59,254 nt of DNA from the NCBI GenBank assembly GCA_021159885.1, contig JAGHDO010000067.1, forward strand, positions 1-59,254, read 5' to 3'. Below the pieces are notes generated by a model. It searched no databases. It saw only the letters and a list, made by a program, of their open reading frames with translations, and was not told the DNA's origin. Of the stretch, positions 4,486 to 19,491 are shown one piece after another; position 1 is the stretch's first letter; every line of letters begins with the position of its first letter. This DNA comes from Synergistota bacterium. Its GTDB lineage: Bacteria > Synergistota > GBS-1. A program made the position numbers and the translations under genes.

Positions 4486-6560
4486 AGAGAAGAATTCTAA
4501 AAGCACTTTCAAGAGCCTCTAAACCTATGAAAATGGAGGACCTTCTCGAAGGGGGCGAAAGTCTTAAAAAGCTTAAAGAAAGCTTAAGGGAGCTCGAGAG
4601 AGAAGGAAAAATCTACATAGACCCGAGGGGAAGAGTAATGCTCGCATCGAGAGCCAAGCTCGTTCCCGGGCGGATAAAGATACATCCTCGTGGTTTTGCG
4701 TTTTTAAAAACAGATATGGGAGAGGAAATTTTCATCCCTCCTGATGCTATAAACGGAGCAATGAGTGGAGACAGGGTCTTTATAAAAACCAAAAAGAGAA
4801 AGGGTAGAGGAACCTACGGAGAGGTAATCAAGGTTATAGAAAGAGCGCGAAACAGAGTAATAGGAAGGTTAGAGCTTTATTCAGCGTTTGCCCTTCTCAT
4901 TCCAGATGACCCTTCCTTAAAAGATCCCATATTGATTCCTAAGAAAAATCTCACAAAAGATGTGAAAAATGGATATAAAGCTCTCGTTGAGATAACTGCC
5001 TTCCCCCGAGGAGCGCAGGGAGCCATAGGTAGGATAATCCGCATTCTTGGAAAAGCAGGAGAAACAGAAACCGAAATTCTAAGTATCTTGCTATCCCACG
5101 GCGTTCCACTCGAGTTCCCAGAAGAGGTAGAAAGGGAAGCAGAATCCCTGCCTGAGAGTATACCCCCAAATGAAATCGAGAAAAGAAAGGACTTTAGAGA
5201 TAAAATTACCGTTACCATTGATGGCGAAGATGCAAGAGATTTTGACGACGCCGTTTCAATAGAAAAGGATGAAGAAGGCAACTACATACTGGGAGTTCAC
5301 ATAGCGGACGTTGGATACTATGTTAAGGAAGGAAGCAGGCTTGACAAGGAAGCGTTTAAGCGAGGGTGTAGCGTCTACATAACAGACAGGGTTATACCTA
5401 TGCTACCCTTCAGGCTCTCGAACAATCTCTGCAGTCTAATAGAGGGAAAGGACAGATTAAGCTTCAGCATAATCATAAAAATAGATCCAAATGGCAAAGT
5501 TCTAAACTATGAGTTATACAAAAGCATCATAAGATCCCGGGCACGGCTAACCTATGAAGGGGCTAATGCTTTCTTCGAAGGAGAAAGAAAGGAACCCTAC
5601 CTAAGCTTAGGGAAAGAGCTAAATTTAATGAGAGAGTTAGCCTTAATATTAAGAAGAAAAAGGCTCTCTAAAGGAGCTCTGGACTTTAATTTCAAGGAGA
5701 TTAAGGTAGTTCTCGGAGAGAAAAGCGAAGTCAAAGAGATAATAAGTTATGAAAGAGGTATAGCGGAAAAAATAATAGAGGAGTTCATGATACTCGCAAA
5801 TGAATGCGTGGCTGAATTCGCCTCTTATAGGCTACTTCCCTTTATATATAGAGTTCATGAGGAGCCAGATCCTGAAAAGATCAGAGAGCTATCCAGATTC
5901 GTTAAGCTTTTTGGGTATACGCTTAAAATAAGAGGAGAGATAAAGCCAAAGCATCTTCAAGCGCTGCTCGAGGAGGTCAAGGGAAAACCGGAAGAAAGAA
6001 TTATTTCAACGCTTCTTTTAAGATCACTTGCGAGAGCGAGATATGATGTGGAAAACCTTGGGCACTTTGGCTTAGCATCGCGTTGTTATACACACTTTAC
6101 ATCTCCTATAAGAAGATACCCCGATCTCGTCATTCACAGGATACTGGCCGAGTTCCTTGAGAGGGGATACCTCCATCCTCAGAGGCAATATCAGCTTTCA
6201 CTTTTCCTGCCAGAGGCGGCACTGAATTCTACTAAAAGAGAGCTCGAGGCAGATGAGATAGAAGAAGAGGAAAAGAAATTCAGAAAGTGTCTCTATATGA
6301 GAAAGAAGCTCGGAGAGATATTCGAGGGAGTTATAAGTGGTGTCATACCACAAGGGATATTCGTTGAGCTTGATAATGGAGTTGAAGGTTTCGTTCCGTT
6401 AGACCTGATGCCAAAGGACAGATATATAGTCTCCGAGGAAAACTTCATGATAATAGGGGCAAGTTCGAGAAGGATTTATAGAATGGGAGATCGCGTTAAA
6501 GTCCAGGTGGTCAGATCCGATCCCTTAGCGAGAAAGATCGACTTCCTCCTTATAGAATAG
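4482..6560 (+). CDS. rnr: ribonuclease R (3'-5' exoribonuclease)
   Basis: Degrades structured RNA from the 3' end. I chose the ATG at 4482 because it overlaps the preceding stop as ATGA; an in-frame ATG at 4440 would lie inside the M20 gene. The resulting 692 residues hold, in order: a winged-helix N-terminus, a cold-shock OB domain (HPRGFAFLKTDMGEEIFIP), the RNB catalytic domain with metal-binding acidic residues in DARDFDDAV (250-257), and a C-terminal S1 domain (EGVISGVIPQGIFVEL). Length and order match RNase R rather than RNase II. The last 36 bases overlap, tail to tail, the end of the HD-GYP gene on the other strand. Confidence 0.96.
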   Translation: MKRRILKALSRASKPMKMEDLLEGGESLKKLKESLRELEREGKIYIDPRGRVMLASRAKLVPGRIKIHPRGFAFLKTDMGEEIFIPPDAINGAMSGDRVFIKTKKRKGRGTYGEVIKVIERARNRVIGRLELYSAFALLIPDDPSLKDPILIPKKNLTKDVKNGYKALVEITAFPRGAQGAIGRIIRILGKAGETETEILSILLSHGVPLEFPEEVEREAESLPESIPPNEIEKRKDFRDKITVTIDGEDARDFDDAVSIEKDEEGNYILGVHIADVGYYVKEGSRLDKEAFKRGCSVYITDRVIPMLPFRLSNNLCSLIEGKDRLSFSIIIKIDPNGKVLNYELYKSIIRSRARLTYEGANAFFEGERKEPYLSLGKELNLMRELALILRRKRLSKGALDFNFKEIKVVLGEKSEVKEIISYERGIAEKIIEEFMILANECVAEFASYRLLPFIYRVHEEPDPEKIRELSRFVKLFGYTLKIRGEIKPKHLQALLEEVKGKPEERIISTLLLRSLARARYDVENLGHFGLASRCYTHFTSPIRRYPDLVIHRILAEFLERGYLHPQRQYQLSLFLPEAALNSTKRELEADEIEEEEKKFRKCLYMRKKLGEIFEGVISGVIPQGIFVELDNGVEGFVPLDLMPKDRYIVSEENFMIIGASSRRIYRMGDRVKVQVVRSDPLARKIDFLLIE

Positions 6561-7691
6561 ACTCTTGGACAGATCATCAAGAACCTCCTCAATAAAGAGC
6601 TCGGACTTAAGCAGATCTATTTCATATGGTTCGTCCACTTCCTTGCCATACTCATCATAAAGAATCTTAACCACAGGCCTAACGGGATAGAGACGATTAG
6701 GTTTAGAAACGACTCCTATTTTCCCATCGCTCAGTCTTACCAAGCTTCCCACAGGATATATCGAAAACCTGTTAACAAAGCTTCTTAAAACCGTAGGGTC
6801 GAAGTGAATGGGACCTTCGTGAAGAATTCTGCTTACCGCATCATAAGCAAGCATCTTTGGTTTGTAAGATCTCTCGGTTGTTAGCGCATCGAAGACATCT
6901 ACAACAGCGACTATCCTCGCCATGGGATGGATTTCCTCCCCCTTAAGCCCCCAAGGATATCCCCTCCCCGAAAACCATTCATGATGCTGACCTATTATAG
7001 CTAATACATCCTTCTCGCTCTCTCCAATGGAGAGAGCCATCTCGATACCATAAAGCGGATGTTTTCTTATTCTCTCGAGCTCCGCTGGGTCAAGCTTGCC
7101 TGGCTTATTTATGATTTCATTCGGGACCTTCATCTTACCTATATCGTGAAGAAGAGCTCCTCTTCCAAGGACCCTAAGCTCATCCGCATCATAACCAAAA
7201 TCCAATCCCAAGAATATGGCAAGCATCGAGACATTAACGGAGTGAACAAACGTGTAGTCATCATAGCGTCTAAGGGCATATAAACTCACCATAACATCCC
7301 TTTTCTCGATAACCTCATGAACCATTCTATCGACCGCTTCGTCTATTTCCTTTTTATCGACTTTTCCAGTGTCAGCTATACTCTTGATCACGCTCAAAGC
7401 CTGTCTTCTCGTTTCCTCGCTTATAACGGGAAATATCCGCGTTATCTTCTCTCTGATCTCATTAATAAAGGGCGCCTCCGCGCCCTCCTCTTTACCAATC
7501 GCCTCGACCATAATTTCGCTTACACCAAATTCCTGAAGCTTGAGCTTTAAAGCCTCACACTCCTCCCAGCTCGATACCTTCATCTTTGCAGGAACGAGAA
7601 AAACCCGAGTTCCTCCTCCCCCGAAGATGTCTTCCCCTATAACATCCCCCGGTAGGAGGTCAAAAATGCTCTTCCTTATGAGCTTACTCAA
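6525..7691 (-). CDS. HD-GYP domain protein (probable cyclic-di-GMP phosphodiesterase)
   Basis: The 388 residues comprise an N-terminal region of about 130 residues of the DUF3391 kind and an HD-GYP domain (about 140-310). Diagnostic motifs are LLHDIGKMKVP (the HD pair), QHHEWFSGRGYPWGL (second metal His pair and the GYP signature), and VVDVFDALTTERSYKP. Known HD-GYP proteins hydrolyse cyclic-di-GMP and lower its level. No membrane span or receiver domain is present, so the input is unclear. The start is a TTG at 7691, supported by AAGGTGAG seven bases upstream. It is the last gene after cheW (24 bases apart), the kinase/helicase fusion and the lipoprotein, and may be an output of that cassette. 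Its 3' end overlaps rnr. Confidence 0.9.
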   Translation of the reverse strand: MSKLIRKSIFDLLPGDVIGEDIFGGGGTRVFLVPAKMKVSSWEECEALKLKLQEFGVSEIMVEAIGKEEGAEAPFINEIREKITRIFPVISEETRRQALSVIKSIADTGKVDKKEIDEAVDRMVHEVIEKRDVMVSLYALRRYDDYTFVHSVNVSMLAIFLGLDFGYDADELRVLGRGALLHDIGKMKVPNEIINKPGKLDPAELERIRKHPLYGIEMALSIGESEKDVLAIIGQHHEWFSGRGYPWGLKGEEIHPMARIVAVVDVFDALTTERSYKPKMLAYDAVSRILHEGPIHFDPTVLRSFVNRFSIYPVGSLVRLSDGKIGVVSKPNRLYPVRPVVKILYDEYGKEVDEPYEIDLLKSELFIEEVLDDLSKSLFYKEEVDLSR

Positions 7692-7715: not shown

Positions 7716-8177
7716 TTAAGAAACGCTAAGCTCCTTTATCTCCTCCTTTTCCTTCTCCGTTAATATCTTCTCGATATTCAATAGAATTATAAGCCTCTTA
7801 TCAAGCTTTCCAACCCCATCTATGTATTCAGACTCTATGCCAGCAACTATAGGAGGAGGCGGTTCAACCTTCTCCTTAGATATCCTTATTATCTCCGATA
7901 CATTATCAACAACGATTCCTATTATCTGTCCACTTATGTTCACCACGATAACTCTTTTCTCCTTTTCGGTTTCCTCCTTGCATTCCAGATTGAACCGCTT
8001 CTTAAGATCTATTATTGGAATTATCTGCCCCCTTAAATTAACTATTCCCTCAACGAACGGAGGCGCTTGCGGAATATGAGTTATCTCCTGAATTCTAACT
8101 ATCTCCTGCACCTTCGCTATGTCAACGCCGTATTCCTCCTTACCAAGCTTAAAAACAACAAGCTGAAGCTCCTCCAT
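7716..8177 (-). CDS. cheW: CheW-like coupling protein
   Basis: CheW links chemoreceptors to the CheA kinase through a two-lobed beta-barrel fold. The 153 residues span one complete CheW domain: QLVVFKLGKEEYGVDI, the family-typical IPQAPPFVEGIVNLRG, IIPIIDLKKRF, and GIVVDNVSEIIRI. I start at the ATG at 8177, which follows GGGAGGGGAG by about eight bases; an in-frame ATG at 8195 has no such site. No cheA, receptor or cheY gene is in the window, so this copy is an orphan. It lies 38 bases after the kinase/helicase gene and 24 bases before the HD-GYP gene. It may work with receptors encoded elsewhere or serve this cassette. Confidence 0.93.
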   Translation of the reverse strand: MEELQLVVFKLGKEEYGVDIAKVQEIVRIQEITHIPQAPPFVEGIVNLRGQIIPIIDLKKRFNLECKEETEKEKRVIVVNISGQIIGIVVDNVSEIIRISKEKVEPPPPIVAGIESEYIDGVGKLDKRLIILLNIEKILTEKEKEEIKELSVS

Positions 8178-8215
8178 AATCTTCTCCCCTCCCATCTTAA
8201 AGGCTTTCCACTCTA

Positions 8216-10837
8216 TTATAACATGCCAAGCAACTCCAATAAAAACCTGGAAGGTTCAGAAGCTCTACCCTCAACGCGCTTAGGATAGCACAGATACAAA
8301 GTATCGGTCGTCCTCGTTATACCCACGAAAAGAAGCCTCCTCTCCTCTTCAAGCTCTTCAAGGCGTGCTAAACTCCTCACAGGAGGGATTTTCCCTTCCA
8401 CAAGTCCTGTAATAAAAACGGTATCGAACTCAAGTCCCTTTGCAGAATGAAAGGTCAAAAGCTTAACAGCATCGCTCTTCTTTCTTATACCCATCTCCTC
8501 CATCAGCGAAATATGGTTTAAAAACTCCCCAATGCCACTGCCTTGAAAGGAAGAAGCGAGCTTAAGGAGCTCAAAATATCCCTCCTTAAAGGTTTCCCAT
8601 CTTCGTCCTTTTCTCCCCAATAGTCCGGATATCTCTACGGGAATTCTCAATAACTCTTCTAAACCGAAACGCTCCTCACCTAAAGCCTCCCTCAAAAATG
8701 AAAGTAGCCTCTCCGCCTTTTTCCTGTTCCTAAAGTTCTCCTCCCGCAGAGCTATTTCATCCCCTCTGATCTCAAGCTTCTTGCCCTTAAGGTTAAGAAT
8801 CCAGTGGAAAAAGTCCGAGATCAACTCAAGATCCTTCCCCCAAATTCCCCTAAGGTAGGAAATAAACCTCTTAACCTCATCTCTTTCATAGAACCGGAGT
8901 GCACCGAGAACCTCATAAGGGATCTGAGCTTTGCTCAAGAGATCCTCAAATATTCTCGACTGAACGTTGTGTCTGTAAAGAATCGCCATGGAGGAAAGGG
9001 ACTTTTTCCCACTTAGCTCCCTGATGGTATTAACCACGAATCTCGCTTCATCTAACTCGTCTCTCGCTATATAAAGCTCAACATTACCCTCCCCCTTTAA
9101 ACTAACAAGATTTGATAAATCTCTACCTGCGTGGGACATAAGTGAAACCGCTACCTTAAGCACGCTTCTTGGTAACCTAAAGCTGTGAGTCAGGTTAAAT
9201 CTCTTAAGGTCAAGCTCCCTCTCAGCTCTCTCGATTATGCCTTGGACAGCACCCCGCCAGGAATATATCGATTGATCGCTATCACCCGTTAAAAACAGCT
9301 CCGTTTCAGGTGATGCTAAAAGCTTTATCAGGCGATACTGCGCTTCATTAAGATCTTGGAGCTCATCCACGAATATATGCTTAAATCTCTTCGAATAAAG
9401 GGCCCTAAGATCGGGCTCCTGAAGGAGCTTTACACCGTAAAAGAGAATATCATCGAAATCCATGACATCCTTTTCTCTCTTAAGCTTTACAAGCTTTTCA
9501 TACAGCTCGGCTACTTTCTTTTGCCAGGGAGAGCGAGCTTCCTTTAAAAACTCCTTAGGAGAAATTATGCTAACCCTTAAAAAGGAGATCTCATTTAACA
9601 TTCTTTCAACGGCAGATGAGGGCATATCAACAGCTATTTCCTTAAAAAGGGGAAGCGAAGACGATATAAGTGAAAAATCCGGTGAGAATCCGAATCTCTC
9701 AGCTTCTCTTTTAAGAAGTTTGTAAAAAGCCCCATGAAACGTGTCTATCCACATTTCTCTAACATCTCTTCCAAGAAGGAGAGCAAGCCTCTCCTTAAAA
9801 TCGCTCACTGCTCTTCTTGTAAATGACATAACGAGAAAGCTTAGCGGATCTTCCCCCTCCCTCAGTTTTCTATAAAGCCTATAAAGAAGGGTGGTAGTTT
9901 TTCCTGTACCGGCACCGCCCACAAGCAAGATCCTCTCTTCAGTTGAAAAAACGACATTTTTTTGAGCAGGCGTAAGTTCAAGCTCGCTCTTTGAAGCCCC
10001 CTTAGGGAGAACTTGAGAAATCCTATGAAGCTTGTGAAGCTTGCCAACGCTGAAAGCCTCCAAAAGCTCGCTCTTAAAAGTAGAGGCTTCAAGATATCTC
10101 TCCTCGGGGACCCTCGAAAGCGCTTTTCTTAAAACATGATTTAATCTATCTGGAGCAGAAGGAAGATAAAACTTCAGGGATTTTACCTCTTCCTCAAAAA
10201 CCTTTCTTCTTATCTCCTCGAGGGTCTCTCCATCGAAAGGATTACGACCAGTTAGTGCCTCATAGATTACAACCCCAAGTGAGTAAAGATCCCCACTGGG
10301 GAGAAAAACCCCATTCCAGGCCTCTGGAGGCATATATACAGGCGTTCCAGCAAGCGTTGCCTTAAGACCGCTCTTTCTTAGAAAAATCCCCAGTCCGAAG
10401 TCAACGAGCTTGACTCTTCCCTCACCAGATATCAGAATATTCTCCGGCTTTATATCTCTGTGAACCAATCTCTTGGAGTGAGCATACGCGAGAGCATCGA
10501 GAACAGGCGGGAATATTCCCACCGCCTCATCAAGCTCTATTCTACCCTTCTTTTCAAGAACCGCCCTTAAGGACTCCCCCTCAACATACTCCATAACGAG
10601 AACGAGCTTCCCCTCTATAAGATCAAGGTTATAGAAGCGAACAATGTTAGGGTGATCAAGAGACGCCAGAAGCTGTGCTTCCTGTTTTAGGAAGCGCAGC
10701 TCTTTTTCACGAATGCGAGATACCTTAAGGGCAAATCTTTTACCCAATAAGGTATCTTCCGCAAGATATACGTCTCCAAATCCTCCTCCGCCAAGCCAAG
10801 AGATAATCTTATATTTACCGAGCTTTGTGAGAAGCAT
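8216..10837 (-). CDS. Ser/Thr protein kinase fused to UvrD/PcrA-type SF1 helicase
   Basis: One unbroken reading frame joins two complete enzymes. Residues about 8-262 form a Hanks-type kinase with glycine loop LGGGGFGDVY (15-24), ATP-binding Lys38 in FALKVS, catalytic Asp128 in HRDIKPEN, DFG Asp146, and PPE in place of APE. After a short linker, residues about 289-873 form an SF1A helicase: Q-motif-like LTPAQ, Walker A GGAGTGKT (307-314), SFTRRAV (Ia), VDELQD (II), GDSDQSIYSWRG (III), LTFHSAKGLEFDTVF (V) and LLFVGITRT (VI). Every key residue of both parts is present. There is no PASTA or membrane segment, so it should be cytoplasmic. I start at ATG 10837 (23-base overlap with the HEAT gene); an in-frame TTG at 10900 would overlap by 86 bases. 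The idea that phosphorylation gates DNA unwinding is inference. Confidence 0.92.
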   Translation of the reverse strand: MLLTKLGKYKIISWLGGGGFGDVYLAEDTLLGKRFALKVSRIREKELRFLKQEAQLLASLDHPNIVRFYNLDLIEGKLVLVMEYVEGESLRAVLEKKGRIELDEAVGIFPPVLDALAYAHSKRLVHRDIKPENILISGEGRVKLVDFGLGIFLRKSGLKATLAGTPVYMPPEAWNGVFLPSGDLYSLGVVIYEALTGRNPFDGETLEEIRRKVFEEEVKSLKFYLPSAPDRLNHVLRKALSRVPEERYLEASTFKSELLEAFSVGKLHKLHRISQVLPKGASKSELELTPAQKNVVFSTEERILLVGGAGTGKTTTLLYRLYRKLREGEDPLSFLVMSFTRRAVSDFKERLALLLGRDVREMWIDTFHGAFYKLLKREAERFGFSPDFSLISSSLPLFKEIAVDMPSSAVERMLNEISFLRVSIISPKEFLKEARSPWQKKVAELYEKLVKLKREKDVMDFDDILFYGVKLLQEPDLRALYSKRFKHIFVDELQDLNEAQYRLIKLLASPETELFLTGDSDQSIYSWRGAVQGIIERAERELDLKRFNLTHSFRLPRSVLKVAVSLMSHAGRDLSNLVSLKGEGNVELYIARDELDEARFVVNTIRELSGKKSLSSMAILYRHNVQSRIFEDLLSKAQIPYEVLGALRFYERDEVKRFISYLRGIWGKDLELISDFFHWILNLKGKKLEIRGDEIALREENFRNRKKAERLLSFLREALGEERFGLEELLRIPVEISGLLGRKGRRWETFKEGYFELLKLASSFQGSGIGEFLNHISLMEEMGIRKKSDAVKLLTFHSAKGLEFDTVFITGLVEGKIPPVRSLARLEELEEERRLLFVGITRTTDTLYLCYPKRVEGRASEPSRFLLELLGML

Positions 10838-12638
10838 CCCATTTCCCCAATACGTGGTAAATAAGCTGGGCAGTTTTTCTATCAATTGAGCTTTTAACAA
10901 GCTCTTTAAGAAAACTCCTTACCCTCGGGAAATCCTTTACAGATTCAGCAAGATACTTAACGATTTTATACCGCACGATTGGATTTTTTTCTCTTAACGC
11001 AGCTTTCTCAAAAGCAGATACAATTTTACGGCTGGGCTTTCGTATAGATAGCCCCTCCACCGCTCTAAGTCTAACATAGGAACTCTTTTCTCCTTCCAAG
11101 ATGTTTAAAAGAAGCTCAGTAGACTTCTGAGATTTCAGGTTCGTTAAAGCATAAGCACACGCTCCCCTTACACCTGAATCTTCACTTTTCATCAATCTTA
11201 TGATAAGATTGACAAAATAGAGATCTCGCGTGTTTCCCACAGCTTTTATTCCCGCGATAAGAAAATCGTTATCTCCCTGAGCTTCAGCGTTTTCAAGAGA
11301 CCTGCAAATCTCGCTTCTCAACCGAGGATATCTTGGATCCTTTTTCTCCCTCAGAGTTCTACCTATTATACCAATAGATAAAAGAGCAGTATTCGAAATA
11401 TCATCTTGATCTTCATTTCCCCTCTCCTCTACGAGTTCCCATAAAGAGGCTATGGTAGCATCAGTCGGATTTTTGAGCCCACCCATGGCAATCACAGCTC
11501 TTAAAATATTGACATGAGATTGAGTTAAATCCGTAGCTATAGAAACGAGGATCCTCTGCGCTTCCAGAGTATCAATCACTCTCAGAGCATAAATCAGCTT
11601 CGCGGAAGCCTCATCACTAATGAGATTACGAGATTTCAGAATAGCAGGTATCCTTCTCATAAATTCAGGATTAGATCTTAGCACGGATAATAATTGCCGT
11701 ACCGAAACTTTTCCCTTAAGATTCAATTTAAGAGGAGCGCTTTTCCGTTCCTCCTCAGAAGAGCATGAACAGGAGCTGGTAGACTCAGATTCCGAAAACC
11801 TAACCTTAAACGATTTCAATAGTTCTTGAGCCGAGTCCACCTTCCATATCGGGAGATCAGAGCGAGGTAATTCATTAAGAAGCTCAGCTTTTACCTTGAA
11901 GGAGGACTCCATAAATTTGCTTCCTTTATAGAAGAGAATTAGCTTTTCCTTCCCTACGAGTTCTTTTATCCAACTCTTTTCTTTTCCAATAACAACTGAG
12001 TATTTCGAACCTATAACCTTTATTTTGCTACCCTCTGGTCTCGAGGTAAGATAGACAAGTTTCTCCTTACTTATCTTCACGCCTCCCTCAAAAAAACTTG
12101 CGGTATACTTAGCCCTGTACCTTCCAGTCTCATGAACCTCAACAGTTTCCCAGCTCCTACTGGCCTGAGAAGGGACGACAACTTCCATAGATTTCACGAT
12201 TTCCAGAAGGAGTCCTTTTTCACTTTTTCTCATCCCCTTGGGGAAAAACGCTTCAAGGACTCTTCCTTCCTTGGAGAAGATAACCTCAAATGGCACGGAA
12301 AGCGCATTTTCAGCTCCTCGAAAGCGAATTCCATAAGCAAAATAGAAAACAGGGCTAATCTGAAAGAGTGTATGAACCTTATTACCCTTTATCCTTAAAA
12401 CCCTAAAGTTAAGAACACCTCCAACCCTTTGAGAAATAAAGCTTTTTCCCTCTCTTTGAGGGAAAAGATTCACACTTACAAAGCTCTCAAGTTTAAATCT
12501 GTAAGCTTCTCTTGAACCGACGGTCCACTTAATAAAGGGACCTCGAGGAATTTTGCTCTTTCCAGAGAACGAAATCGATATCCCCACTATCCCTGCAAGT
12601 ACAAGTATTATAATCCATATAAGTCGATGCGATTTCAT
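10815..12638 (-). CDS. membrane-anchored HEAT-repeat protein, vitellogenin-N-like layout
   Basis: This 607-residue protein begins with one membrane span (about residues 7-23), so the rest is probably outside the cytoplasm. Residues about 40-250 are beta-rich (WTVGSREAYRFKLES, then alternating hydrophobic strands). A Ser/Cys-rich linker (SESESTSSCSCSS, about 282-294) leads to an alpha-helical repeat region from about 312 to the end, with HEAT-type units such as DSGVRGACAYALTNL and SYVRLRAVEGLS. A beta domain followed by a helical array recalls the N-terminal lipid-transfer module of vitellogenin-type proteins, but that is inference from layout. It overlaps the upstream lipoprotein gene by 4 bases (ATGA) and the downstream kinase/helicase gene by 23, so the three are probably translationally coupled. 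Confidence 0.7.
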   Translation of the reverse strand: MKSHRLIWIIILVLAGIVGISISFSGKSKIPRGPFIKWTVGSREAYRFKLESFVSVNLFPQREGKSFISQRVGGVLNFRVLRIKGNKVHTLFQISPVFYFAYGIRFRGAENALSVPFEVIFSKEGRVLEAFFPKGMRKSEKGLLLEIVKSMEVVVPSQASRSWETVEVHETGRYRAKYTASFFEGGVKISKEKLVYLTSRPEGSKIKVIGSKYSVVIGKEKSWIKELVGKEKLILFYKGSKFMESSFKVKAELLNELPRSDLPIWKVDSAQELLKSFKVRFSESESTSSCSCSSEEERKSAPLKLNLKGKVSVRQLLSVLRSNPEFMRRIPAILKSRNLISDEASAKLIYALRVIDTLEAQRILVSIATDLTQSHVNILRAVIAMGGLKNPTDATIASLWELVEERGNEDQDDISNTALLSIGIIGRTLREKKDPRYPRLRSEICRSLENAEAQGDNDFLIAGIKAVGNTRDLYFVNLIIRLMKSEDSGVRGACAYALTNLKSQKSTELLLNILEGEKSSYVRLRAVEGLSIRKPSRKIVSAFEKAALREKNPIVRYKIVKYLAESVKDFPRVRSFLKELVKSSIDRKTAQLIYHVLGKWDASHKAR

Positions 12639-14464
12639 TCTCGATCACGTCCGCGCTTTATATCTATATGACGCTGTTCATCGAAAATCGTATCTTTTTT
12701 CGAGAAGGTATCCCATCTCACGAGCGTCTTAGAGCGTTCTTCGTGCCCACAGGGATAAGGTATTATATGCCATTTCCAACAGGTTTTAGGATATTTAACC
12801 CAAATTTCGAGATATCCTGATGGACCAGTAATATCATAAGAAAGCTTCTCGCTTAAGTCACCTTCCATACTAACTTTCTCAATTCGTCCCGATGCCAAGG
12901 ACAATGAAGCACTGCTATCAGATATAAACTTTCCACCAAAAATAGTAATATGTCCAGTAATACCAGCCTCAACGGCAATCAAATCCACGCTTGCCGAAGC
13001 TTCTGTGTCCACGTTAGCTAACGGAACCTGACAGGATTTAAGATCTCCCCCATTTTCTCCCACGTTTATAGAAACGTTCAGGTCAAAACCTATCTCACCA
13101 TAAGCCTTCATCTTAAGTTTAACCGGTATTACCGATACCCATATTACATCCTTTATCTCAAATCCCTCAGATACGCTGAAATCCTTATCCCACTCTATTA
13201 AGCCATTCTTATGAATCTGATAAATGGTATCACCCGAGAAAACAAGATTCACATCCAGCGTACAATCTTTAGAAGATAAAGGTGTTAAGAAGGAAGCACC
13301 ATCAAAACCAAGAAACTCCGTAGAATAACCAAAAACCCTAACAGGCAAGCTTGCAGAAGCATTTACGCTAACGCCATTTTCATCCGCTGCAAATTTACCG
13401 CTAAAGCTTACACTCGCCCCAAAATATTTGCTATCAAAGCCCTTGTGGAAGCTCTTTTCCCACAATATTGAATTAGCGTCCTTACCCCTGGCATCAACAC
13501 ATGCGAATCCTTTAAATATGGAAACGTTTTTCTTGATAATGTTATTATCTACGCCTGGTAAATTATAAGGTTCCTCATGTTCCTCTATAGCACCATCCGA
13601 GTTCACTTTAAAAATGAGAGGGAAAGTACTTTTCCCAGCCAGTTCAATGTCATTCTCTATATCATCAAGCACATCGGAAGGAATAAATGCATCGAAAGGA
13701 ACGCTAACATCCTCATCCCTGTGTATAACGGGTATTATTAAGCCATAATGGTAACTTTGACTCTTCGAATCCCATAGCATTATTTCTTCCTCTCCTTTTG
13801 AGGTCTCGATGTAAGCTCTAATTGGAACGTCCTCTGCTCCTGCGCCAATGGAACTAACAATGAGCGTACCACTTATATATCCCTCTCTAACGCCATCCTC
13901 AACACAAACGTTATACTGATGCTCATACAACGACACATAATCACTATCAAGATAAAGCTTTTTTGCTACAAGATCTGGTGTGTTAACATATTGAGTCCCA
14001 ACGTTGACCATATCGGATGTCCAAGCTACATTATCGGATCTATCTGACTCCGAAAACCTTTTTAAGGGATCTACGCAAGCCATAATATAGTATCTTCCAG
14101 GAGATATACCACTATCCCACATAACTCCTGAAAGAAGAACGGTATAAGTATCGCTTCCTGCGCTAACATGCGGGATTACATACCCTCCAAGGGGATATGT
14201 ATCCTCTTCAACTATGTCTTCTTCACCCGTTTTCTTTGTAAGATAAAAGCTTATCGCTACGTTTTCTGCATCCCTCTCAGCGGTCAAGGTGAAGCAAATC
14301 TGAAAAGGGTAATTTACCTCTATGGTATTGCTTACCATAGACAGGTCAGAAAGCGAAAACTCATTTAAGGAAGCTTCCCTCGAGGAAGTCCCACAGCCGG
14401 CTAACAAGGTCCCCAACACCAGAAAAAGCACCAGCGGGAGGCATGCTCCCTTTCTGAAGGACAT
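12635..14464 (-). CDS. surface lipoprotein with CARDB-like domain
   Basis: The 609 residues start with a lipoprotein signal (hydrophobic core, lipobox LLAGC, acylated Cys about residue 24). Residues about 40-155 look like a CARDB-type adhesion or spacer domain, with the typical YPFQICFTLTAERDAENV opening and CVDPLKRFSESDRSDN near its end. A second similar unit may span about 160-310. The remaining C-terminal half is a beta-rich region I do not recognise. It includes many VNASASLPVRV-like strands and a Cys/Trp-rich end (TCWKWHIIPYPCGHEE). It sits 31 bases after the FtsA-like gene and overlaps the HEAT gene by 4 bases. It may be the outside sensor or scaffold of the kinase/helicase cassette; that role is inferred from linkage only. 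Confidence 0.75.
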   Translation of the reverse strand: MSFRKGACLPLVLFLVLGTLLAGCGTSSREASLNEFSLSDLSMVSNTIEVNYPFQICFTLTAERDAENVAISFYLTKKTGEEDIVEEDTYPLGGYVIPHVSAGSDTYTVLLSGVMWDSGISPGRYYIMACVDPLKRFSESDRSDNVAWTSDMVNVGTQYVNTPDLVAKKLYLDSDYVSLYEHQYNVCVEDGVREGYISGTLIVSSIGAGAEDVPIRAYIETSKGEEEIMLWDSKSQSYHYGLIIPVIHRDEDVSVPFDAFIPSDVLDDIENDIELAGKSTFPLIFKVNSDGAIEEHEEPYNLPGVDNNIIKKNVSIFKGFACVDARGKDANSILWEKSFHKGFDSKYFGASVSFSGKFAADENGVSVNASASLPVRVFGYSTEFLGFDGASFLTPLSSKDCTLDVNLVFSGDTIYQIHKNGLIEWDKDFSVSEGFEIKDVIWVSVIPVKLKMKAYGEIGFDLNVSINVGENGGDLKSCQVPLANVDTEASASVDLIAVEAGITGHITIFGGKFISDSSASLSLASGRIEKVSMEGDLSEKLSYDITGPSGYLEIWVKYPKTCWKWHIIPYPCGHEERSKTLVRWDTFSKKDTIFDEQRHIDIKRGRDRE

Positions 14465-14494: not shown

Positions 14495-16642
14495 CTATTC
14501 CACATAAATCTCTATCCTGTCTCCATCCTTTATAGGAGTTGTAAAGCCTGCCTCAACTCCATTAACCTTCATCTTTATATATCCTTTCTTCTCCCTCAAT
14601 ATCTCCTCAACGGGAAAGACCTTAAAGATATGTGAAAGTATAGGGGTATCAGCAAATCCCCTTCTGACCTCTATTTTCGCACCGTTATATATATCATCTT
14701 CAGGAGAAGCAATTCTTCCATCGATCATAACCGCCGTTTCCTCCCAGCTAACCTCAACGGGCTTTCCATTAACGAAAACCCTGATCTTCCTCTCAGCTAA
14801 GTCGGGAACGAGATCCTTAACCTTATAACTGATGCTTTCGAGGTCAAGCAGGTCTATCCTATCGCCATCCCTGACTGGGGCATCAAACGAGGCTTCATTA
14901 CCATTAAGCATAACCCTACCTTTCCATAGCGGAAGTAGCTTCTTTTCCCCGTTCAAGGTGATCTCCATCTCATAAGGAGCAGGCAGAACACCCGCCTTCT
15001 TCAGAGCCTCCTTAACGTTAGAAACCTGAACTATCTCTATTCTCGCTCTATCGTAAAGCGGTGCTTTAAGTGGCATTTTCCTGCCATCTACATAGACATC
15101 TGGGAAAAACTCGTACATTTTTCCGTTTATAAACAATCTGAGAGGGGAAAGAGCACCAACGACATCCTTAAGGAGTGCAAATGCCGGCTTCCCAGGACGC
15201 GCTCTTCTCACCCTTATTCTGTCTCCACTCTTAATAGGCGAATCAAGACCTGCCTCTTCACCGTTTACCCAGATCCTCGCTGGCTCTCCAAGCTCGCCTC
15301 TTATTATCCTTAATCTTCCATTTATCTCAACGGTGAGAGACATACCGGGACGAGGCTTAAGCTCATCCGGAGAAATACCCATCGGAATCAGAGCATCTAA
15401 AACCCTAAGCTCACCAGTTAGAGAAACAAGCCTTATCATCTCATCGTTTACCCAGACATCCACGAATCTAAAGCCAGCTCGCTTTCTCGCTATGACTGCT
15501 ATGCCAAGAGGCGTTACCATCTCGGGCCCCTTAAGCTCACCAGTTAAATCTTCTATACCTTTTAGAACCTCTGCTCCTCTTACCCTGACCCTTGAAGGAT
15601 CAATTCCCAAACGCTCTGCTATCTTAACATCAAAGAGGGGAATCTGACTCCCTCCGCCTATACATATCACCGCCTGCGGAGGAGCAGAGTTTAGCTCGAG
15701 TATCTTTTCTGAAAGAAGGTTAGCGTGCCTTTCCACTTCAGGTTCCAGAAAGGATATTATCTCATCTTTATTTAGCTTATAATGGTTCCCGAGTATGTCC
15801 TCAAATTCAATAACAGACAGCTCATCTCGCAGTGATCTCTTTATCCTCTCAGCCACATTAAAGTCAAGAAGATACTTCTCGCAAAGCTTTTCCGTTATCT
15901 CATCTCCAGCAACGGGAACCATTCCATAAGCAACAACCGTTCCTTCCCTCGTTATAGCTATGTCCATCGTTCCTGCACCCACATCCACAAGTGCCAAGTT
16001 CAATCTTCTCATATCTTGAGGAACCACAACCTCTATAGCCGCTATAGGTTCAAGAGTTATACTCGAAACCTTAAGCTCAGCTCTTCTTAGAACGGAAAGC
16101 ATGCTATCCAGAACCACTCTTGGCAGAAAGGTAGCGAGAACCTCAACCCCCATCTTCTTGCCTCTCTGACCCACAAGATTTCTTATAGGATCTCCCTCAA
16201 GCGTATATTTAACGACGCTGTATCCCACACAGTGAAACTCCTCGCCGGCCTCAGAAGATCCCCTCAACCTTTTAAGGGCGTTCTGCAATGCCTGGAGCTC
16301 AAGCTCTCTGACCATCTCTTCTGTTATATCCTGAGCGAGATCTATAGGAACCTCAGCAGTTCCCCTCATCGTTCTCAATGCCCTTCCTGCAACGGCAACG
16401 CTTACCTCAGAAAGCCTGCGCTTAAGTTGCTTCTCAAGTGCCTCCTTAACCCGAGAAACCACCTTAGAAACCTGCTCAACATCGTGTATCTGTCCATCAA
16501 GCATAGATCTCGTTCTATGCTCTTCGAGAACGAGATGTCTCACCCTAAGGATCTCCTCCCCAGGCTCTGCTATAAGCCCAACCACGTTTCTCGTACCTAT
16601 ATCGAGAGCAAAGATCTCGCTTTTAACTTTTTTTCTTGCCAT
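14495..16642 (-). CDS. FtsA-like actin-fold ATPase with C-terminal beta-grasp-like repeats
   Basis: The first 390 or so residues are an FtsA/PilM-type actin fold with ATP-binding motifs ALDIGTRNVVGLI (phosphate 1), LVDVGAGTMDIAI (phosphate 2) and VICIGGGSQIPLF (adenosine). An SHS2-like insertion lies in between (about 85-200). At 715 residues it is far longer than classic FtsA (about 420). The extra C-terminal part carries five copies, about 60 residues apart (near 459, 518, 579, 640 and 693), of a motif like VNG-EA-x3-PI-x-DGDRI, resembling ThiS/MoaD beta-grasp ends. No amphipathic membrane-binding tail is obvious. It lies 12 bases after mutS2, near zapA, so a division or envelope role is plausible. 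It is probably not the main FtsA, as no ftsZ is adjacent. Confidence 0.85.
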   Translation of the reverse strand: MARKKVKSEIFALDIGTRNVVGLIAEPGEEILRVRHLVLEEHRTRSMLDGQIHDVEQVSKVVSRVKEALEKQLKRRLSEVSVAVAGRALRTMRGTAEVPIDLAQDITEEMVRELELQALQNALKRLRGSSEAGEEFHCVGYSVVKYTLEGDPIRNLVGQRGKKMGVEVLATFLPRVVLDSMLSVLRRAELKVSSITLEPIAAIEVVVPQDMRRLNLALVDVGAGTMDIAITREGTVVAYGMVPVAGDEITEKLCEKYLLDFNVAERIKRSLRDELSVIEFEDILGNHYKLNKDEIISFLEPEVERHANLLSEKILELNSAPPQAVICIGGGSQIPLFDVKIAERLGIDPSRVRVRGAEVLKGIEDLTGELKGPEMVTPLGIAVIARKRAGFRFVDVWVNDEMIRLVSLTGELRVLDALIPMGISPDELKPRPGMSLTVEINGRLRIIRGELGEPARIWVNGEEAGLDSPIKSGDRIRVRRARPGKPAFALLKDVVGALSPLRLFINGKMYEFFPDVYVDGRKMPLKAPLYDRARIEIVQVSNVKEALKKAGVLPAPYEMEITLNGEKKLLPLWKGRVMLNGNEASFDAPVRDGDRIDLLDLESISYKVKDLVPDLAERKIRVFVNGKPVEVSWEETAVMIDGRIASPEDDIYNGAKIEVRRGFADTPILSHIFKVFPVEEILREKKGYIKMKVNGVEAGFTTPIKDGDRIEIYVE

Positions 16643-16654
16643 GCGTTCAACACC

Positions 16655-18991
16655 TCAATCTCTCTCAAAGTAAACCATGGTAACTCCCTGTCCTCCCTCT
16701 ATCTCATCTCCAAACCTGAACTCCTTCACATAGGGAATCTCCCTAAGAAGGTCCCATACCATTCTGCGAAGAATTCCTTCCCCTTTACCATGAACTATCT
16801 TAACGTATGGATATCCCTTCAAGAAAGCTCTATCGAGAAACCTTAAAACATCTTCTCGGGCTTCCTCAACGCTTTTCTTTCTTATAGAAAGCTCAAATGG
16901 AACGTCTTCCACTTCAAAGCTTATTTCCTCCCTTTCTGGCTCATCCAGCTCATTCTGAGTTATCCCCTCTCCACTGACCTCATCCTTTGAGAGAAATACC
17001 CTGAAGAACCCTATTCTCAAGACGACTTCCTCATCTTCAGGGAAGATTTCCTCAACCTCTCCCCACTTTCCAAACTTCGGAACATATACTCTGTCCCCGA
17101 TTTTAAGGAACTTAACGCTCCTTAAGGGTTCAAAGGTAATGGGCTTATCTTCATCCAGCTCCTTAGAAAGCTTTCTGAGCTTCCCTTTCGCTTCAGCGTA
17201 GCTCCTTACACTGGCTTTCGCATCTTTAAGTATCTTTTTAAGCTCTTTTTCCGCTTCTTTGAGCATCCTGTTAGCCTTAAGCTTCGCGGAAGAAAGAATC
17301 TTTTCCTCCTTTTCCCTTATCCTCTCAAGCTTTCTTTGATACTTGTCCTTAGCTTCCTCAGCTTTTTTCAGTTCTTCCTTAAGCTTCTTCTCAAGTATGG
17401 CGTAACTTGAGCGCTTCGTATGAAGCTCCCTTATAACTTTTTCCACTCTCTCATCCTGAGACGATATGAGTCTGCTTGCTTCTTTTAATACTTCCTCGAG
17501 CATACCGAGTCTCTTCGCTATAGCGAGAGCATTGCTTGCTCCAGGAATGCCTATGAAGAGCCTGTACGTGGGCCTAAGCGTCTCTATATCGAACTCCACT
17601 GACGCGTTCTCTATATCCCTCTCCCTTATAGCATAATATTTCAGCGCAGGGTAGTGAGTCGTAACTATGGCCTTGGCTCTCTTTTCCCTTATGTACTTTA
17701 AAATAGCCATAGCAAGTGCTGCTCCTTCCTGCGGATCCGTCCCCGCACCAAGCTCATCAAGTAGAAGCAAGGAACGAGAGCTTATACGTGGGAGAATCTT
17801 AGCTATAGGCTCTATATGAGAGGAAAACGTCGATAGATTCTGCACTATGCTCTGCTCATCTCCTATATCTGCAAACAGCACATCGAACTCGCCTACTATC
17901 GCTTCCTGTGCGGGAATGGGAAACCCACACCAGGAAGCCAAGACCATCAAGCCTGCCGTTTTTAAAGCTACCGTCTTACCACCCGTGTTTGGGCCTGTTA
18001 TAACAAGAATACTGAACTTCTTACCAACCTCTATGCTTATAGGCACTGCTTCCCTACCAAGCAAAGGATGTCTCACTTCCACAAGCTTAAGAAAAGGCTT
18101 TTCCTCCAACTTAGGTACTATACATTTTTCATCTATCATAAAAAGAGCACGAGCACAGAGATCGTCCAATTGAGCAACTATATTGAGGTTTCTCATAAGC
18201 TCCCTCGAGGCATTCATCGTTATCTCCCCGAGACGGTACAAAATTCTATTTATTTCGTTCTCCTCTTCAGACCTTAGTTCCCTCAACTTATTTTGAAGCT
18301 CGAGAGTAGAAAGCGGTTCCATAAAAACGGTCATACCGCTTCCCGAAAGATCATGAACAATTCCCGGAAAGGATCCCTTTTTATCCCGCCTGACGGGAAT
18401 AACATATCTCCCTTCCCTAAGAGTATATATCGGTTCCTGAATTACATCGGAGAAATCAGGAGAATATATTATTTTAGAAAGCTCACCCTTTATTCTCTCC
18501 TCAAGAGCTTTTATCCGCCTTCTCAAAGAAGAAAGGAGGGGAGAAGCTCCGGAATCCACCTCTCCCCTATCATTTATAGCGCTTGATATCGATGAAGAAA
18601 GCCCTCTTAAAGGCTCAATATCCTTCGCAAGAGAGTAGAGCGAAGGATATTCCCCTCTAAGCGAGTGAAAATAATCCCTCAGCTTCTCCACGCTTTTACA
18701 GAAATCCCTTATTTTAAGAAGCTCCTCGGGAAAGAGCTTCAGAGATGTTTTAAGGTTCTCTAAAAGCGGGGTTATATCCTCAAGAGCCCCCGTAAAGGGA
18801 GGAAACTCTCCAGATGAAAGAAGTCGATGAAACTCTTCAAGCAGGATGAGCTCTCTCTTGAGCTTATCCTTATCCAGAGTGGTTTTAGCGAGTATTCTCC
18901 TTCTGCCCATGCTTGTAAGAGCCTTTTTCGACACCAGCTCCTTAAACGCCTCAAATTCAAGAAGTCTCCTTGTCCTCTTATCTACATCCAT
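16655..18991 (-). CDS. mutS2: MutS2 family ATPase/endonuclease
   Basis: MutS2 proteins act on recombination intermediates and, in some bacteria, on collided ribosomes; they are not mismatch repair enzymes. The 778 residues show the MutS core and clamp-like region, Walker A GPNTGGKT (333-340), Walker B LLLLDELGAGTDPQEG, the switch STFSSHIEPI and a charged coiled coil (about 500-620). A C-terminal Smr nuclease domain contains HGKGEGILRR. The usual DARF-type opening of Smr is replaced by DRAFLKGYPYVKIVHG, which is within family variation. The N-terminal mismatch-binding domain of MutS is absent, as expected. The start overlaps the cvpA end by 10 bases; cvpA-mutS2 adjacency is common. Confidence 0.96.
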   Translation of the reverse strand: MDVDKRTRRLLEFEAFKELVSKKALTSMGRRRILAKTTLDKDKLKRELILLEEFHRLLSSGEFPPFTGALEDITPLLENLKTSLKLFPEELLKIRDFCKSVEKLRDYFHSLRGEYPSLYSLAKDIEPLRGLSSSISSAINDRGEVDSGASPLLSSLRRRIKALEERIKGELSKIIYSPDFSDVIQEPIYTLREGRYVIPVRRDKKGSFPGIVHDLSGSGMTVFMEPLSTLELQNKLRELRSEEENEINRILYRLGEITMNASRELMRNLNIVAQLDDLCARALFMIDEKCIVPKLEEKPFLKLVEVRHPLLGREAVPISIEVGKKFSILVITGPNTGGKTVALKTAGLMVLASWCGFPIPAQEAIVGEFDVLFADIGDEQSIVQNLSTFSSHIEPIAKILPRISSRSLLLLDELGAGTDPQEGAALAMAILKYIREKRAKAIVTTHYPALKYYAIRERDIENASVEFDIETLRPTYRLFIGIPGASNALAIAKRLGMLEEVLKEASRLISSQDERVEKVIRELHTKRSSYAILEKKLKEELKKAEEAKDKYQRKLERIREKEEKILSSAKLKANRMLKEAEKELKKILKDAKASVRSYAEAKGKLRKLSKELDEDKPITFEPLRSVKFLKIGDRVYVPKFGKWGEVEEIFPEDEEVVLRIGFFRVFLSKDEVSGEGITQNELDEPEREEISFEVEDVPFELSIRKKSVEEAREDVLRFLDRAFLKGYPYVKIVHGKGEGILRRMVWDLLREIPYVKEFRFGDEIEGGQGVTMVYFERD

Positions 18992-19491
18992 TTTAATTCA
19001 CCTATCACCCTCCTTACATAAGGAAAAGCATATTTTTTGAAAATCCCATAAAATAGCGAGCTTTCCCTAAGAGTTTTCAATAAGGTAACCTCGGGAAGCA
19101 CAGAAATTACGAAAAAGAGCGCGCTTAAGATAACGAGCGCTTCCGCAACCCCGAAGAGGGCTCCCCCCCATTTATCGAGCCAACCCAGCCAAACTGCCTT
19201 AAGAATCTTATGGAGCAAAACCCCCAAAAGAGAGAAAAAAACAAGCACGAGGAAGAATATCAGAGCAAAAGATATTAAGGAAGAAAACGAAGCAATGGAG
19301 GGAAACCTCAACCGCAATCCTCCCGCTAAACTGGGGTAATATTTAAAAGCAATTCCTAAACCAACTATTAACCCCACCAGGGAGGTTAGCTCTCTCGATA
19401 TGCCTCTAAACCACCCTCGCACGAAGAGAAACAGTATAAGGGCTAATGCAAAGATATCTAAAAAACCAACATTTATTCCTTCATGAGGCAC
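18982..19491 (-). CDS. cvpA: CvpA family membrane protein
   Basis: The 169 residues form four predicted membrane spans: about 8-26, 34-50, 65-90 and 107-130. They include the family-typical opening FLDIFALALILFLFVRGWFRG and the Gly-rich LVGLIVGLGIAF. CvpA proteins are inner-membrane proteins linked to colicin V export and envelope stress; the exact activity is unknown. The gene overlaps zapA upstream by 19 bases and mutS2 downstream by 10 bases. The start could also be a few codons further in, because the first seven residues (MPHEGIN) are not conserved in the family as far as I recall. Confidence 0.9.
   Translation of the reverse strand: MPHEGINVGFLDIFALALILFLFVRGWFRGISRELTSLVGLIVGLGIAFKYYPSLAGGLRLRFPSIASFSSLISFALIFFLVLVFFSLLGVLLHKILKAVWLGWLDKWGGALFGVAEALVILSALFFVISVLPEVTLLKTLRESSLFYGIFKKYAFPYVRRVIGELKWM

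Follow-up and report, generated by a model that had tools for sequence, protein, structure and literature searches.

In a stretch of DNA of 59,254 nucleotides from a member of the Synergistota, analysed here in full and referred to as the window, one reading frame carries both a Hanks-type Ser/Thr kinase and a UvrD-type helicase. The locus raises the questions of whether such a protein is real, how often the architecture has arisen and what a kinase and a DNA motor might accomplish on a single chain. A description of a kinase-UvrD fusion was not found in the open-access literature, nor was a chain spanning both halves found among the PDB matches listed, in agreement with the claim of the sequence-only reading that no such system had been described. 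Helicases are not mentioned in a 2005 survey (PMC1262709). Each part is known by itself; their combination appears to be undescribed in the open literature.

Reading frame, domains and predicted fold

The fusion frame begins with an ATG at 10837 and closes with a stop that ends at 8216, comprising 873 codons and no internal stops. It stays open upstream to a TTG at 10900; the ATG, which lies 23 bp within the 3' end of the upstream gene in the window, is the start common to the relatives. The genome from which the window derives is 1.77 Mb in size and 97% complete. The features of the locus are listed in Table 1.

Table 1. Positions of the fusion gene, its parts and its neighbours in the window
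Feature	Position	Strand	Basis or remark
Kinase-helicase fusion gene, 873 aa	8216..10837	-	Single ORF; orthologues one chain in the sister genomes G001, G002 and G003
Hanks-type Ser/Thr kinase domain, residues 9-262	10052..10813	-	Pfam PF00069, alignment, model
Linker, residues 263-286, 19% conserved	9980..10051	-	Alignment; model unordered at 266-285
UvrD/PcrA-type SF1A helicase, residues 287-873, with the complete set of motor motifs	8219..9979	-	Pfam PF00580/PF13361, model, C-terminal length
2B subdomain, residues 664-788	8474..8848	-	C-terminal/2B length comparison; alignment
CheW-domain protein	7716..8195	-	Next gene downstream of the fusion in 4/4 genomes, 82-84% identity
HD-domain protein (HD_5)	6525..7691	-	Conserved neighbour
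HEAT-repeat ORF	10815..12638	-	Between the FtsA-like gene and the fusion; window genome only
Putative lipoprotein-like ORF	12635..14464	-	At that place in the window genome only
FtsA/PilM-like ATPase with ThiS/TGS-like (beta-grasp) repeats	14495..16642	-	Conserved neighbour
MutS2 (MutS_V + Smr)	16655..18991	-	Conserved operon member, four genomes
CvpA family membrane protein	18982..19491	-	Conserved in the two genomes whose contig extends there

The kinase half matches the Pfam Pkinase family (PF00069) over residues 9-249 with 172.9 bits against a cut-off of 31.7, and carries the G-loop GGGGFGDV, K38, the alphaC E53, HRDIKPEN (D128), DFG (D146) and PPE. The helicase half matches UvrD-helicase (PF00580) over residues 288-541 with 200.4 bits against a cut-off of 23 and UvrD_C (PF13361) with 144 bits, the best piece covering residues 769-852; its motifs include Walker A (GGAGTGKTTT, with K313), Ia (SFTRRAV), II (VDELQD), III (GDSDQSIYSWRG), IV, V (TFHSAKGLEF) and VI (VGITRT). 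The earlier claim that an intact kinase and an intact UvrD-type helicase share one frame, joined by a short linker, is borne out by the ORF, the Pfam matches and the motifs, with 24 residues (263-286) lying between the halves.

By sequence and fold, the PASTA kinases PknB and Stk1 are the closest kinase family. The predicted kinase structure matches PknB with a TM score of up to 0.91 by target, and the PASTA kinase profile NF033483 is matched by the kinase half only, with 238 bits against a cut-off of 450. PknB-type bacterial kinases typically have a sensor C-terminal to the kinase; unlike PknB and Stk1, the window protein has neither PASTA domains (no Pfam match to PASTA repeats) nor a transmembrane helix, and the helicase stands in their place.

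The helicase shares with PcrA, UvrD and Rep all the motor motifs and the 1A/1B/2A/2B layout of SF1A enzymes. Its best structural matches are 1pjr and 1qhg, the predicted structure matching PcrA 1pjr over about 620 columns with a TM score of 0.79 by target. The scores against the PcrA, UvrD and Rep equivalogs remain far below their cut-offs (TIGR01073, 366 of 911 bits; TIGR01075, 307 of 1144; TIGR01074, 306 of 951). The window helicase differs from these enzymes in its N-terminal kinase, in a shortened 2B that has lost the helix-hairpin-helix (RGIG) and in the absence of the C-terminal Tudor-like tail. The 2B insert, at 138 aa, is shorter than the 160-171 aa of the PcrA, UvrD and Rep proteins compared; 70 residues follow motif V against 154 in Escherichia coli UvrD, and the protein terminates about 30 residues past motif VI. 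The fused helicase comes on top of an ordinary PcrA-like enzyme of 638-644 aa that each of the four genomes of the family also encodes; grouping of the fused helicase with the family's own PcrA was not rejected in a tree test (AU p = 0.32).

Among the four orthologues of the family, conservation is highest in the kinase (72%), followed by the motor subdomains (65-71%), and drops to 48% in 2B, the fastest-evolving folded part, and to 19% in the linker. The kinase Lys, Glu, HRD Asp, Asn and DFG Asp are invariant in the alignment, as is T161 of the activation loop, and, of the kinase and helicase motifs together, nearly all are unchanged in the three sisters. Because the kinase and the motor subdomains are conserved to this extent and the catalytic residues are intact in all four orthologues, neither half is decaying, as had been claimed from the letters of the window. 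An AlphaFold2 model was built from an alignment of 56 rows drawn from the window, genome contigs and viral contigs, leaving out the fusion orthologues from the whole-genome search. It predicts two well-folded domains (mean pLDDT 88.9, pTM 0.70) joined by a linker with pLDDT below 50, an arrangement compatible with tethering.

Distribution and origins of the fusion

The merging of two genes by an assembly join or a frameshift is vanishingly improbable as an explanation of the frame. Orthologues of 869-873 aa, with 63-67% identity and invariant catalytic residues, are encoded as one chain in all four genomes of the family that were analysed, so that the same single ORF is seen in four separate assemblies and three genera, and it is seen independently in 18 Acidobacteriota genomes. 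Where two separate genes in relatives had been considered, each of the three sister genomes has a single gene; and the fusion, which might have been unique to one assembly, is present in the four family assemblies and in the Acidobacteriota. An assembly join or frameshift is ruled out by these single-chain orthologues. The wider search that had been proposed for the same architecture recovers it at least in the Synergistota family (4 genomes), where the neighbours are conserved, and in one order of the Acidobacteriota (18 of 119 genomes).

The fusion was found in none of 184 other Synergistota genomes, in which the best matches are stand-alone helicases with open frames of about 650-890 codons that align with the helicase half only. 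The window genome represents a deep branch of the phylum, and no order- or class-level relatives are listed between the family and the remaining Synergistota.

Kinase-UvrD fusions in the Acidobacteriota were identified in a scan of a genome collection, among the matches listed. Sixteen of the 18 genomes with both halves in one ORF have fusions that are apparently full length, with frames of 944-1066 codons. When 396 Acidobacteriota genomes sampled from across the phylum were searched, only two full-length matches came up, both already known from that order, the next matches being stand-alone helicases of 680-723 aa with 47-50% identity. The Acidobacteriota proteins resemble the window protein in domain order and in the intactness of both halves and differ from it in their independent origin and an identity of about 30%. 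In the 16 proteins checked, the Walker A, DExQD and motif V/VI patterns are kept, and the strict motif III pattern is unmatched in some. Putative B12-binding radical SAM proteins, recognised by eye, lie near the Acidobacteriota fusion at both loci inspected (L005, 4518-7681; L003, 4858-6648). Long-span matches in the Geodermatophilaceae and Planctomycetota are not fusions, as no ORF there holds both halves.

Within the Acidobacteriota, many kinases of the genome that carries the fusion are about 50% identical to the fused kinase, and a stand-alone UvrD encoded there is 41-42% identical to the fused helicase. In trees that include paralogues, the Acidobacteriota fusion is nested among Acidobacteriota kinases and with a stand-alone Acidobacteriota UvrD paralogue. 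The final tests, with same-genome paralogues added and nine long-branch rows dropped, reject a single clade of both fusions for the kinase (AU p = 0.0026) and for the helicase (AU p = 1e-6); an earlier test with thinner kinase sampling had given p = 0.07 for a common origin. The trees are quick searches with long branches, and the two halves and the identity pattern agree. A common origin of the Synergistota and Acidobacteriota fusions is rejected on both trees; therefore, as judged from these phylogenies, the kinase-UvrD architecture has evolved at least twice. Since the Acidobacteriota arrived at this combination independently, there has probably been an advantage, on more than one occasion, in having a kinase and a helicase in the same protein.

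Operon and phosphorylation repertoire

In all four genomes of the family, the fusion lies downstream of mutS2 and the FtsA/PilM-like gene and upstream of cheW and the HD-domain gene, beyond which RNase R (rnr), in convergent orientation, and guaA are found. The cvpA gene precedes mutS2 in the two genomes with a contig reaching that far, and pheST lies farther upstream in the window. Genes are closely spaced here: the FtsA/PilM-like gene immediately precedes the fusion in the other three genomes and overlaps it by 4 bp in G001; the HEAT-repeat and putative lipoprotein ORFs (10815-14464) are an insertion into the otherwise syntenic operon, seen in the window genome only. The FtsA/PilM-like ATPase, of 715 aa, is present at full length in the fusion family only, among 14 Synergistota genomes, and a normal-sized FtsA-like gene is also present elsewhere in the genome. 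The CheW-domain protein is among the best conserved neighbours in this mutS2/kinase-helicase operon, where it may act in chemotaxis or as a scaffold for the kinase.

A profile search with PF00069 returned the fusion as the sole match in each of the four family genomes, and neither a PrpC-type PP2C phosphatase (PF13672) nor an FHA domain was found in them. Dephosphorylation may still take place, since two of the four genomes encode a SpoIIE-type phosphatase domain. LexA (PF01726) gave no match over the cut-off in 14 Synergistota genomes (the four of the family and ten others), which suggests a phylum without the classical SOS repressor; because it is general among the sampled Synergistota, this absence is uninformative on the fusion family specifically.

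Possible coupling of kinase and helicase

Two bacterial kinases offer precedents. YabT of Bacillus subtilis undergoes DNA-activated trans-autophosphorylation and phosphorylates RecA (PMC3708118, PMC6333020). Like the fusion, it is a PknB-type Hanks kinase without an extracellular sensor and tied to DNA metabolism, and DNA is here proposed as the activating signal of the fusion also; in YabT the kinase is followed by a short basic DNA-binding tail and then a C-terminal membrane helix, whereas in the fusion it is followed by a complete, ATP-driven helicase of 585 residues and no membrane anchor is present. RqkA of Deinococcus radiodurans, an organism without a classical SOS response, is a DNA damage-responsive kinase proposed to connect damage with repair and division proteins (RecA, PprA, FtsZ and FtsA) (PMC6052341). 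Its setting is like that of the window family, where no LexA was found and the operon of the fusion includes a neighbouring FtsA/PilM-like gene; unlike the window protein, RqkA has no described fusion to a helicase. Regulation in the UvrD family acts through the 2B subdomain, which inhibits monomers when it touches duplex DNA; the inhibition is relieved by dimerisation or by partners, Rep dimerising on DNA and UvrD through 2B-2B contacts (PMC13238157).

Tentatively, and at somewhat less than an even chance, the helicase is proposed to serve as a DNA sensor and dimerisation platform with the kinase as its output. The protein would be one cytosolic enzyme, a PknB-like Ser/Thr kinase attached by a flexible linker to a 3'-5' motor of UvrD/PcrA type, the helicase half occupying the position held in ordinary bacterial kinases by PASTA or other sensor domains. 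The helicase would load on single-stranded, stalled or damaged DNA, where two or more molecules would assemble and their kinase domains trans-autophosphorylate, T161 being the candidate site. The active kinase may then phosphorylate its own helicase, in which the auto-inhibitory 2B is reduced, and so tune unwinding, or it may phosphorylate proteins encountered on DNA, the products of mutS2 and of the FtsA-like gene in the operon being possible targets. The fusion would in this manner be a DNA-state-responsive kinase, a soluble counterpart of YabT with a motor as sensor.

This proposal is favoured because the sensor site is taken by a DNA motor and because of the YabT and RqkA precedents. It is further supported by the finding of neither another Hanks kinase nor a member of the canonical pThr toolkit that could serve the kinase half, by the conservation of the mutS2 operon in four genomes, by the convergent second fusion, which keeps the domain order, and by the activation of UvrD-family helicases by dimerisation or partners through 2B (PMC13238157). 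Against it, 2B, the site of the UvrD dimer contacts (PMC13238157), is the reduced part of the protein; the linker is predicted to be disordered, and the model does not fix the placement of the two domains relative to each other; and mutS2 and cvpA are housekeeping neighbours, co-transcription with which is no proof of a shared pathway. The idea of a DNA-state checkpoint kinase, which would have the translocating helicase as sensor and be activated by damaged or stalled DNA, and which takes in the two origins and the failure to find LexA, is somewhat unlikely.

The direction of control may also be reversed, with the kinase sensing a ligand, the ATP level or an upstream partner and phosphorylating its own helicase or 2B in cis, toggling unwinding; the fusion would then be a regulated repair or R-loop helicase beside a constitutive PcrA. 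The reduced, fast-evolving 2B without its HhH is in keeping with a kinase that has taken over the regulatory role, UvrD-family monomers can be activated through relief of 2B autoinhibition (PMC13238157), the separate PcrA covers housekeeping, and action in cis is parsimonious because neither an FHA reader nor another Hanks kinase was found. However, the kinase half lacks a soluble or transmembrane sensor of its own, and a conserved Ser/Thr patch in 2B is not demonstrated; this reversed control is considered rather unlikely. A still less probable explanation holds that the helicase ferries the kinase along DNA to chromosome-bound substrates such as RecA, SSB, MutS2 or RNA polymerase, with no allostery. 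It accommodates the disordered and unconserved linker, the operon with mutS2 and the phosphorylation of repair and division proteins by RqkA and YabT (PMC6052341, PMC3708118), but decay of the helicase active site would then be expected to be tolerated in some members, and both ATPase sites are intact in the four Synergistota proteins and, the strict motif III pattern apart, the motor patterns are kept in the 16 Acidobacteriota proteins checked.

A role in anti-phage defence is very improbable. The domains resemble parts of the Gabija (GajB), DRT-helicase and PD-T4-6 kinase systems, with PADLOC scores of 252 bits for GajB and 230 bits for the PD-T4-6 kinases, but such values are explained by the similarity that UvrD helicases and Hanks kinases show in general. 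Every analysed genome of the family has the gene, which resides in a syntenic housekeeping operon (pheST-cvpA-mutS2) without toxin or mobile genes. The GajA nuclease gene is absent beside the UvrD-like gene, the neighbours being CheW, HD, HEAT, FtsA-like and MutS2. The fusion is in no phage or plasmid record, none covering 80% of the protein, and a scan of IMG/VR returned one relative, whose best segment aligned with the kinase half only. The locus is a core operon, neither a defence island nor a mobile element, and the defence reading is rejected on genomic context. Functional coupling of the two halves is favoured on the basis of the mutS2 operon, the missing other Hanks kinases, PrpC phosphatase and FHA domain, and the convergence. 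Unwinding may be gated by phosphorylation or reported through it, as the sequence-only reading had proposed, with control running in either direction. Architecture, conservation, intact active sites, the operon, the sole-kinase status and the convergence are observed; enzymatic activity, dimerisation on DNA, coupling and substrates are inferred.

Two enzyme families whose regulation in bacteria is unsettled, as regards the signals of soluble Hanks kinases and the switching on of UvrD-type helicases, have been covalently joined twice with both halves conserved. Here a helicase forms the second domain of a soluble Hanks kinase, a combination made more interesting by the independent second origin and by the sole-kinase status. 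As it is apparently the only Hanks kinase of the lineage, whatever it phosphorylates would make up the cell's entire Hanks phosphoproteome. Should the two halves be coupled, DNA structure, motor state and phosphorylation could be followed together on a single purified protein, which would provide a directly testable bacterial parallel to the eukaryotic DNA-damage kinases.
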